Source of the DNA: Pseudomonadota bacterium
GTDB lineage: Bacteria > Pseudomonadota > Gammaproteobacteria > Pseudomonadales > Oceanobacteraceae
Length of the DNA: 8,304 nt
NCBI GenBank assembly: GCA_023399105.1
Contig: JAEWQT010000291.1
Span: 1 to 8,304 of the forward strand
Direction of reading: 5' to 3'
Below the pieces are notes generated by a model that saw nothing but the letters and a program-made list of their open reading frames with translations, made no database searches and was not told where the DNA came from. The translations under genes and the position numbers were made by a program. This document shows, one piece after another, positions 3,436 through 8,304 of the stretch (position 1 is the first letter of the stretch; each line of letters starts with the position of its first letter).

Positions 3436-3470
3436 TTAATGTCATAAAAACATCATAAAAATGACATTAA
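3436..3470 (+). promoter_or_regulatory. Upstream inverted Pho half-site element of the porin promoter
   Basis: TTAATGTCAT (3436-3445) is repeated as its exact reverse complement ATGACATTAA (3461-3470) across a 15-base A-rich spacer. Read forward, 3439-3456 matches the 18-base E. coli Pho box consensus at 14 of 18 positions. TGTCAT begins 11 bases before CATCAT, which is the PhoB half-site period. It lies about 20 bases upstream of a stronger Pho box, so it is probably an auxiliary PhoB site; the opposed orientation is unusual. Confidence 0.6.
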
Positions 3471-3489
3471 ACCGAAATACCGACAGGCA

Positions 3490-3507
3490 ATGTCATAAAA
3501 CTGTAAC
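3490..3507 (+). promoter_or_regulatory. Pho box (PhoB binding site) of the porin gene
   Basis: ATGTCATAAAACTGTAAC matches the E. coli consensus CTGTCATAWAWCTGTMAY at 17 of 18 positions; only the first base differs. It consists of two TGTCA/TGTAA half-sites 11 bases apart. It ends exactly 10 bases before a -10-like hexamer, the arrangement in which bound PhoB replaces a -35 element. Confidence 0.9.
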
Positions 3508-3517
3508 TATTCTGCAA

Positions 3518-4628: not shown

Positions 4629-4672
4629 ATTGGCCGTTTATTGAGGTTTTGCCACGTTATTGTCGGACGTTA

Positions 4673-4716
4673 TTGGTGGTCGTTGTTGGTGGTCGTTGTT
4701 GGTGGTCGTTGTTGGT
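4673..4716. repeat. Tandem 13-bp repeat in the porin-phoR intergenic region
   Basis: Three perfect head-to-tail copies of TTGGTGGTCGTTG (4673-4685, 4686-4698, 4699-4711), then a partial copy (TTGGT, 4712-4716). It lies beyond the porin terminator and just past the phoR stop, so it would be transcribed mainly as the phoR 3' untranslated region. There each unit contains an AACAACGA sequence. It is not inside any convincing reading frame. Confidence 0.9.
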
Positions 4717-4743
4717 TGTTGGCCCGGAACATTGGTCAGCGGC

Positions 4744-7105: not shown

Positions 7106-7426
7106 ATGAGTCTGATTGTTGATCTCGCCGGCATTGTGCGGCCTTACACCAGCAGTATTGCCATTGCCTTAATTGCCACGCTGCTGGTGATTTTTGGTGG
7201 CGCCATTAATGAAATGGTACGCACGCTGATCAAAACCCAACCTATGTGGTTGCGGGTGCTGGTGTTTATTCTGCTCTGTACCTTTGGCTACGGGATTTTG
7301 TCGGTGTGGTTAACCGGTTTGCTGCAGGGGTATTTGCGCGGTTTGAGTGCGGGGATGTTTTTGTTGCAGGTGAGTCTGGCGTTTGTGGTGATTGGCGTGC
7401 TGGCCGAACGCAGCCGCTGGCGGTGA
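7106..7426 (+). CDS. Small integral membrane protein, DUF3392-like
   Basis: 106-residue hydrophobic protein with three predicted membrane helices (about 17-34, 48-71 and 81-100), a basic segment between helices 1 and 2, and a basic C-terminal tail (ERSRWR). AAGGGGA (7094-7100) is a strong ribosome site 5 bases before the ATG. From memory it resembles the uncharacterised gammaproteobacterial family DUF3392, whose members have about this length and topology; I could not verify this. No catalytic motif is visible. It sits alone, after the tRNA terminator and convergent with the regulatory RNA, so the context gives no functional hint. Confidence 0.85.
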   Translation: MSLIVDLAGIVRPYTSSIAIALIATLLVIFGGAINEMVRTLIKTQPMWLRVLVFILLCTFGYGILSVWLTGLLQGYLRGLSAGMFLLQVSLAFVVIGVLAERSRWR

Positions 7427-7466
7427 AATTCTGGTTATCCGGGGAATGTGGTGCGGGGGAGGGGTG

Positions 7467-7501
7467 AAAATCGGGCGGTCGGAATTCCGTTTCTGACCAC
7501 C
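7467..7501 (-). terminator. Terminator-like hairpin of the CsrB/RsmZ-type RNA
   Basis: On the minus strand GGTGGTCAGAA (7501-7491) pairs with TTCCGACCGCC (7484-7474) as an 11-position stem with one A-C mismatch and one G-U pair. Its 6-nt loop ACGGAA itself carries a GGA. CGA and then four T (7470-7467) follow. The T-run is short and 3 bases from the stem, so efficiency is uncertain. On the plus strand no T-run follows. Confidence 0.65.
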
Positions 7502-7738
7502 ACAGCACCCAAAGCCTTCCTGGCCGAGAAGCTTACGCTTAATCCGTCTTGCCCTTCCTGGGTTCTTCCTTGTCATCGTCCTGATGAATGTTCTTCCTGT
7601 TGCCTCCTGGCGGGTCTTCCCTGAAGCAATCCTTTGCAGAGTCCTGTGGTATTCCGCTACCTGATTTCATCCTTTCGCACGTCCGTGCACATCATCCTGC
7701 TGACCACTGCGATCCGTGCAGTGCAGTCATCCCTGATG
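7467..7738 (-). ncRNA. CsrB/RsmZ-type CsrA-sequestering regulatory RNA (candidate)
   Basis: About 272 nt on the minus strand, with no convincing protein frame. It contains 17 GGA motifs, where about four would be expected by chance; seven are CAGGA and others are AAGGA or ACGGA. CsrA/RsmA proteins bind GGA, best when it sits in a hairpin loop. Several motifs here do: CACTGC-ACGGATC-GCAGTG (7705-7723), GCAC-GGAC-GTGC (7677-7688), GGTA-GCGGAA-TACC (7648-7661), GCAA-AGGA-TTGC (7626-7637) and TCATC-AGGAC-GATGA (7573-7587). The 3' end is a terminator-like hairpin. Upstream are an extended -10, an IHF-like site and a GacA/UvrY-like palindrome. Known CsrB, CsrC and RsmY/Z RNAs titrate CsrA/RsmA away from target mRNAs under GacS/GacA (BarA/UvrY) control. 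The 5' end is estimated from the -10 (within about 5 nt). I cannot choose between the csrB and rsm family names. Confidence 0.85.
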
Positions 7739-7744
7739 CGAATA

Positions 7745-7753
7745 AAGATAACA
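7745..7753 (-). promoter_or_regulatory. Extended -10 promoter element of the CsrB/RsmZ-type RNA
   Basis: The minus strand reads TGTTATCTT: a TGn extension followed by TATCTT (4 of 6 to TATAAT). No good -35 lies at 16-18 bases, as expected for an activator-dependent promoter. Transcription would start near 7738. An overlapping alternative -10 (TTTATT, 7746-7741) would shift the start by about 4 bases. Confidence 0.55.
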
Positions 7754-7844
7754 GAATCAGTGGGTTGCAAAAGTGCCACTGGCTGCTTTTGTGACCACTT
7801 ACCAGATGATTTTTTTGTTATCAGTGATTGGTAAAAGCCATATA

Positions 7845-7857
7845 AATCAATGAGTTA
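7845..7857 (+). promoter_or_regulatory. IHF binding-site match
   Basis: AATCAATGAGTTA is a perfect match to the IHF core consensus WATCAANNNNTTR, with A/T-rich DNA beside it. It lies between the palindromic activator site and the RNA promoter, where DNA bending could bring the two together. A weaker second match (11 of 13) is at 7819-7831. Confidence 0.55.
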
Positions 7858-7921
7858 GCTAATTGTGTTGCCGTGCGGATGGCAAATGATGTCGAATGGC
7901 TGCCGGAATGTCCTACCAGCG

Positions 7922-7939
7922 TGTGAGATATATCGCACA
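7922..7939. promoter_or_regulatory. GacA/UvrY-type upstream activating palindrome
   Basis: TGTGAGATATATCGCACA fits the TGTAAG-N6-CTTACA type of GacA/UvrY site at 9 of the 12 defined positions. It is the core of a larger palindrome at 7919-7942 whose 12-base halves (GCGTGTGAGATA and TATCGCACACGC) are reverse complements except for one position. Its centre is about 190 bp upstream of the inferred RNA start, comparable to the remote activating sites of known csrB and rsm RNA genes. It is also 53 bases before the divergent gene at 7993. A CRP/Vfr-type site is the main alternative reading. Confidence 0.65.
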
Positions 7940-7992
7940 CGCGCTGCAGAAATTCGCCCGGCACCTTCGTCCGCAGGGCACAGGAGTGAGAC

Positions 7993-8304
7993 ATGAGTGA
8001 CACATTAAACATCCCGGCCGGGCTGGTTTTTTTACCGCTGGGCGAAGAGGCCTTGCCGCTGCTGAAACGGGGCGTGGTACCGCTGCTGCAGCCGGTCGAC
8101 AGTGGCTTGCCCTGGTTTGTTCGGGCAGCCGAAAAGGCTCAGGCTCCGGCGCGGATTGATGACGCCGTCTATCTGGCGCATTTGCAGCGCGAGTATCAGC
8201 GTCTGCCGGACTCTTTGCGTGGCCTGCTGACGCAGGAGGTATTTATTCAGCAGGCGGAAAAGAAGCGCGCGGATATTGAAGCGGCCTTATTGGCGCAGCA
8301 GCAG
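7993..8304 (+). CDS. Unrecognised protein, N-terminal 104 residues (runs off the window)
   Basis: An open frame from ATG with AGGAG (7982-7986) 6 bases upstream continues without a stop to the last base, so the C terminus is missing. The N terminus is mildly hydrophobic but not a signal peptide (MSDTLNIPAGLVFLPLGEEA), with a proline- and leucine-rich stretch to about residue 40. Residues about 56-104 are charged, rich in Q, A and L, and look helical, possibly the start of a coiled coil (EVFIQQAEKKRADIEAALLA). Codon use is G/C-ending and resembles its neighbours, so it looks like a genuine gene. I recognise no domain. It is divergent from the CsrB/RsmZ-type RNA and shares its upstream region, including the palindrome at 7919-7942. 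Confidence 0.8.
   Translation, partial: MSDTLNIPAGLVFLPLGEEALPLLKRGVVPLLQPVDSGLPWFVRAAEKAQAPARIDDAVYLAHLQREYQRLPDSLRGLLTQEVFIQQAEKKRADIEAALLAQQQ

Follow-up and report, generated by a model that had tools for sequence, protein, structure and literature searches.

A predicted CsrB-type small RNA gene beyond a DUF3392 gene in a likely relative of Thalassolituus

Introduction

What does the apparently empty interval between a DUF3392 gene and a divergent gene encode, when one of its strands is crowded with GGA motifs? The first-pass annotation proposed that its minus strand encodes a CsrB/RsmZ-like RNA that titrates CsrA, and took this to imply an active Gac/Csr network. The question was addressed in the window, by which we mean the whole stretch of 8,304 nucleotides that was analyzed, and in the corresponding loci of related genomes.

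The host is likely a bacterium related to Thalassolituus, from which the closest named DUF3392 proteins come. The 5′ part of the window holds genes that we take, from their translations, to be pst, phoU and phoB-like. A porin gene and a gene for a PhoR-like histidine kinase, both recognized with Pfam (the PhoR domain itself scored below the cut-off), precede the interval, and a tRNA was found by the Rfam search. As context, the interval is flanked by two plus-strand genes: the syntenic DUF3392 gene (7106–7426; PF11872, 105.6 bits), which reads towards it, and the divergent gene, which has no Pfam match and no assigned function and runs from 7993 to 8304, past the window edge.

Results

The minus strand from 7738 to 7467 contains 17 GGA in 272 nt, with 10 AGGA and 7 CAGGA, and the plus strand of 7467–7738 contains one GGA. 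The recount agrees with the numbers first given for GGA and CAGGA, and both are rare in shuffled sequences. Mononucleotide shuffles contained 8.3 GGA on average and reached at least 17 in 1 of 5000 cases; dinucleotide shuffles averaged 10.3 and reached at least 17 in 5 of 5000. CAGGA occurred 0.94 times on average in the dinucleotide shuffles, none of which (0/5000) reached 7. Elsewhere in the 8.3-kb window, the richest 272-nt stretch has 8 GGA (starts 7201–7799 excluded). Based on the GGA excess and on conservation in relatives, we placed a predicted small RNA of ~271 nt with 17 GGA at 7467–7737 on the minus strand; its start is predicted at ~7 nt past the hexamer TATCTT described below, and the Thalassolituus counterpart would be ~206 nt long.

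To compare the locus with those of relatives, 54 DUF3392 loci were taken from genome contigs by a profile search with an alignment of DUF3392 homologues; a search of genome contigs with a single DUF3392 protein returned nothing. A stretch was counted as GGA-rich when 250 nt of the minus strand within ~1.6 kb of DUF3392 held at least 12 GGA, at least 10 of them in CsrA-like context. An equivalent stretch lies beyond DUF3392 on the same strand in 16 of the 54 loci (L001–L012, L016, L025, L039 and L046), and L036 has a weaker one with 8 GGA. The GGA count as sole identifier was rejected, because another part of the L052 locus also has 13 GGA in 250 nt.

Upstream of the predicted RNA, the window carries an 18-nt inverted repeat of the UvrY/GacA-box type (7922–7939; TGTGCGATATATCTCACA on the minus strand), which is a predicted activator site. 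Between this repeat and the promoter lies AATCAATGAGTTA (7845–7857, plus strand), which has no mismatch to the IHF consensus WATCAANNNNTTR; 2 of 300 shuffles gave an equally good match. The −10-like hexamer TATCTT (7745–7750, minus strand) aligns with hexamers of the TATCTT/TATTGT type in the relatives. No −35 element was identified for the window RNA, and simple promoter and terminator scans of the window listed neither for it.

A degenerate pattern of the repeat, devised after the sequences had been seen, occurs in the window and in 17 of the 54 loci, namely the 16 GGA-rich loci and L036; the other 37 lack it. Measured from the middle of the repeat to the last base of the −10 hexamer, the distance is 171–175 nt in 12 loci, 162 nt in L011, 150–151 nt in three Reinekea loci and 186 nt in the window, which exceeds that of the 12 relatives by 11–15 nt. 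A perfect IHF consensus 63–64 nt past the repeat is shared by the window and 8 loci (L001–L004, L006–L008 and L011). At the conserved offset, L005 and L010 differ from the consensus by one mismatch, and L016 has its perfect match elsewhere; L009, L012, L036, the Reinekea loci and the second copy in L011 likewise have no perfect match at this offset.

The repeat lies only 53 nt 5′ of the start codon at 7993, and its TGTGA-N6-TCGCA form resembles a CRP site, which raises the question of whether it belongs to the divergent gene and leaves the GGA-rich RNA outside UvrY/GacA control. Homologues of the divergent gene were found in 12 of the 54 loci and are absent from L009, L011, L012, L016 and L046. 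In these five the spacing from the repeat to the −10 hexamer is nevertheless kept, and the repeat is therefore tied to the RNA. The half-sites of L010–L012 are moreover of the TGTAAG type and resemble the GacA box, which is described in PMC8523701. We thus regard assignment of the repeat to the divergent gene alone as very unlikely, although it may also serve that gene in a second role.

The 3′ end of the predicted RNA is a terminator-like hairpin (7467–7504, minus strand) with a GGA in its loop and a U4 tract. A covariance model of this end (R1; 59 positions) matches it at 54 bits, the window being one of the 13 source sequences of the model. In an alignment of 26 distinct sequences, 10 of the 15 pairs of the helix have changed on both sides. 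The covariation score was 0.406, compared with 0.185 for shuffled alignments, none of which (0 of 500) scored as high, and no more than 0.098 for slid ones; fitting of the alignment to the model favours this score. Directly 5′ of the hairpin, the motif GGGTGCTG (7503–7510, minus strand) shows no variation across all 13 aligned 3′ ends, and it is missing from the Reinekea type (L025, L039 and L046) and from one of the two L011 copies. The stem with U4 noted earlier is present, but it is weak in the window: it contains one A-C mismatch and has a folding energy of −14.2 kcal/mol, compared with −28.8 kcal/mol and U7 in the Thalassolituus-type version.

This weak terminator and the repeat-to-promoter spacing of 186 instead of 171–175 nt would also fit a window copy that is a decaying sponge gene and no longer works. 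The comparison with the nearest relative, L102 in genome G050 (94.0% identical over 2339 bases), points the other way. The RNA is identical at 265 of 271 positions (97.8%), with six differences including a one-base gap, and all 17 GGA (51 of 51 bases) are kept. The repeat is identical at 18 of 18 positions, and at 38 of 38 when 10 bases on each side are included; the spacer from the repeat to the RNA start is identical at 160 of 184. Third codon positions of the neighbouring genes are identical at 93 of 107 (DUF3392), 210 of 236 (phoB) and 87 of 104 (divergent gene), i.e., 83.7–89.0%. The RNA and the repeat are better kept than these positions, which indicates purifying selection since the window and L102 split. 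The terminator of L102 is identical to that of the window. Decay is accordingly very unlikely. Conservation of the GGA motifs in related genomes, which had been proposed as a check, was seen both in the GGA-rich loci and in L102.

In the window RNA, hairpins with at least 4 pairs display 7 GGA in their loops when G-U pairs are allowed and 5 when the pairs are Watson-Crick only, as expected from the earlier count of at least five in short perfect hairpins. Taken alone, this hairpin count is a weak excess, which was equaled by 24 of 300 shuffles with the GGA fixed; the same test is weak for many single RNAs and shows no excess in L008 (207 of 300). A permutation over 28 RNAs, in which the 3′ flanks were swapped among the GGA sites within each RNA, is the better test. 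The set consisted of the 30 model loci without L103 and L106, which have no repeat, and without L092, which equals L091, and with the window added. Of the 536 GGA sites, 167 fall within hairpins that have at least 4 Watson-Crick pairs, compared with a permuted mean of 28.0 and a maximum of 45 in 200 permutations. The bases of the GGA motifs have a mean unpaired probability of 0.70, compared with 0.44 for other G and A, and the value is higher for GGA in 28 of 28 RNAs, which share ancestry and are therefore not independent trials.

Both strands have open frames of 66–88 aa that run through the interval. The earlier statement that no protein frame explains it holds insofar as a Pfam search of two such frames gave no match, but frames as such do exist. 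That the interval encodes a short protein whose coding sequence accounts for the conservation is nonetheless highly improbable: in L102 the stretch is interrupted by a gap of one base, the RNAs of the relatives differ in length (202–599 nt), and the conservation is located in the GGA hairpins and the covarying terminator. The whole-RNA folding energy of the minus strand is ordinary (z −0.94) and lends no support, and folding is relatively better for the plus strand (z −2.46), yet a functional plus-strand RNA, or an RNA that acts mainly by base-pairing with mRNAs, is equally hard to credit given one GGA on plus versus 17 on minus, a −10 hexamer and U tract oriented for the minus strand, and the conservation of every GGA in L102.

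R1 matches 33 of the 44 genomes of the family of G005. Twelve of the matched genomes supplied R1 sequences, so the corresponding figure for the others is 21 of 32. For 30 R1 matches fetched with ~1.5 kb on each side, the repeat lies upstream in 28 and DUF3392 is present in 23. Every one of the 33 genomes matched by R1 has a CsrA over the Pfam cut-off, as do 8 of the 11 others, and a UvrY homologue at E ≤1e-50 is present in 31 of 33 and 9 of 11, respectively; at this threshold none was found in G004 and G048, though both are matched by R1. The presence of csrA and uvrY in the lineage of the window is known only from relatives' genomes, including G050 (a 94% relative), which has one CsrA and a UvrY homologue at 57% identity.

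The search with Rfam models, which had been suggested as a check, did not return the RNA above threshold. The CsrB model (RF00018) aligns end to end with 7683–7463 of the minus strand at 19.3 bits, with an E-value of 0.037 window-wide against all families and 0.0026 for 7420–7992 alone; the gathering score is 71, and Rfam would therefore leave the RNA unannotated. No genome passed the RF00018 cut-off, either among the 44 of the family (26 candidates scored per genome) or among 17 genomes of relatives (up to 50 candidates scored). Sub-threshold matches to it occur in 9 of these 17, at this locus in 7 (G001, G009, G010, G011, G013, G014 and G017). At E ≤1, control genomes also matched RF00018 (5 of 14, one over the cut-off) and RF00166 (8 of 14, none over the cut-off), so sub-threshold Rfam matches are weak evidence alone. 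RF00166 (PrrB_RsmZ; gathering score 44 bits) was not listed for the interval at E ≤1 and was over its cut-off in 0 of the 17 relatives' genomes. In 13 loci, Rfam at the gathering threshold reported tRNA only.

Discussion

Judging from the sequence features described above, the minus strand from 7737 to 7467 very probably is a CsrB-type small RNA gene. Its transcript would capture many CsrA dimers at its 17 GGA sites and thereby free CsrA-controlled mRNAs. In the mechanism that we propose, phosphorylated UvrY/GacA would bind the 18-nt repeat, IHF would help it to reach the promoter, and the promoter would yield an RNA of ~271 nt. CsrA would then bind the GGA loops and become sequestered, and the CsrA-controlled mRNAs would be released by this titration. 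The reading of the first-pass annotation, an RNA that titrates CsrA, is strengthened by the equivalent stretch at the same place and strand in relatives, the repeat of UvrY/GacA type, the IHF consensus, the GGA-loop hairpins, the covarying terminator, and the csrA and uvrY genes of the relatives' genomes, including G050. Its reference to an active Gac/Csr network fits the genes seen in relatives and the predicted sites, but the word "active" goes beyond these.

The RNA looks like a distant relative of CsrB, and the order of its parts (repeat, IHF consensus, −10, GGA-rich RNA and terminator-like hairpin) is that of E. coli csrB. In E. coli K-12, the repeat TGTGAGAGATCTCTTACA is centred 182 nt before the start, and the window likewise has its 18-nt repeat at ~180–190 nt. 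Both have a −10-like TATCTT; E. coli has GATTCTATCTTC directly before the start, where the window has GATTCTGTTATCTTT. A perfect IHF match, identified by consensus alone, is found at offset 68 in E. coli, in the orientation opposite to that of the window. Both RNAs have many GGA/CAGGA in hairpin loops and a 3′ terminator or terminator-like hairpin, but csrB is longer (369 nt with 22 GGA, compared with 271 nt with 17 GGA) and has yqcC and syd as neighbours, compared with DUF3392 and the unassigned gene here. UvrY binds the E. coli csrB palindrome at −183/−182 and IHF is needed at csrB, according to PMC4682653.

RsmZ (RF00166) is also a CsrA/RsmA-binding RNA with GGA loops, but its model of 133 positions is much shorter than the window RNA. 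Of the original designation "CsrB/RsmZ-like", the CsrB part is therefore retained, on promoter layout, length and GGA number, and the RsmZ part is dropped.

RNAs of this kind are already known, also in Oceanospirillales; what is new here is a divergent lineage below the Rfam cut-off, with a wide range of GGA and copy numbers. In Marinomonas mediterranea, of the same order, the CsrB and CsrC loci combine a GacA box with numerous CsrA motifs, and RNA-seq shows that the two RNAs depend on the BarA/UvrY-like PpoS/PpoR, as stated in PMC8523701; these loci have other names and were compared by description. Two CsrA-related small RNAs, CsrR1 and CsrR2, were detected by dRNA-seq in Alcanivorax dieselolei, a marine alkane degrader. 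In CsrR1, which derives from the hfq 5′UTR, five GGA are unpaired and four are paired in part, and in CsrR2 six are unpaired, as given in PMC9788540; they are likened to the window RNA by description only. A literature search, covering few subscription papers, never returned CsrA with Thalassolituus, CsrB with Reinekea, or CsrA with Oceanobacter together.

The 17 RNAs of the 16 loci and the window span 202–599 nt and 12–44 GGA, and a wider set reaches down to 9 GGA in 146–166 nt. Three large sponges are L016 5328–5873 of Oceanobacter mangrovi (44 GGA in 546 nt), L011 6196–6794 (39 in 599 nt) and L009 5514–6011 (35 in 498 nt); E. coli CsrB, by comparison, contains 22 in 369 nt. Head-to-tail sponge copies, each with its own 18-nt repeat, are present in L025 6100–7510 of Reinekea sp. 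G2M2-21 (three), L039 6150–7080 of Reinekea blandensis (two) and L011 5300–6980 of Parathalassolituus penaei (two). These data may reflect one clade-wide sponge gene with a conserved UvrY-IHF promoter, whose capacity has been rescaled by repeat expansion and tandem duplication; we consider the chances of this evenly balanced. If it holds, the rescaled sponge would amount to a naturally occurring dosage series for CsrA titration, one missed by the Rfam cut-offs, and RNAs with 9–44 GGA would be suited to asking how sponge capacity sets CsrA control. With this analysis, a csrB-like gene whose activator and IHF sites are predicted is assigned to a family in which the Rfam CsrB model passes in 0 of 44 genomes and R1 matches 33. 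For Thalassolituus-like bacteria, the output of the Gac/Csr switch can thereby be tested directly.

Other candidates were observed in the relatives. L071 1501–1610 of Reinekea blandensis, away from the DUF3392 locus, gives an RsmZ-like match of 41.6 bits (cut-off 44). A second GGA-rich RNA candidate in a Bermanella MAG (L060 341–526; 9 GGA in 186 nt) has a stem ending in a T run and was picked up by the CsrB model at 27.4 bits, and L064 holds another secondary GGA-rich match.

Elsewhere in the window, the porin gene (3580) sits between the phoU-like and phoR-like genes. Repeats at 3436–3510, 5′ of this gene, resemble the Pho box, and the product may be a phosphate-controlled porin. Between the porin gene and the phoR-like gene, at 4670–4720, ggtggtcgttgtt-like units recur in a short, imperfect tandem array that was seen by eye.
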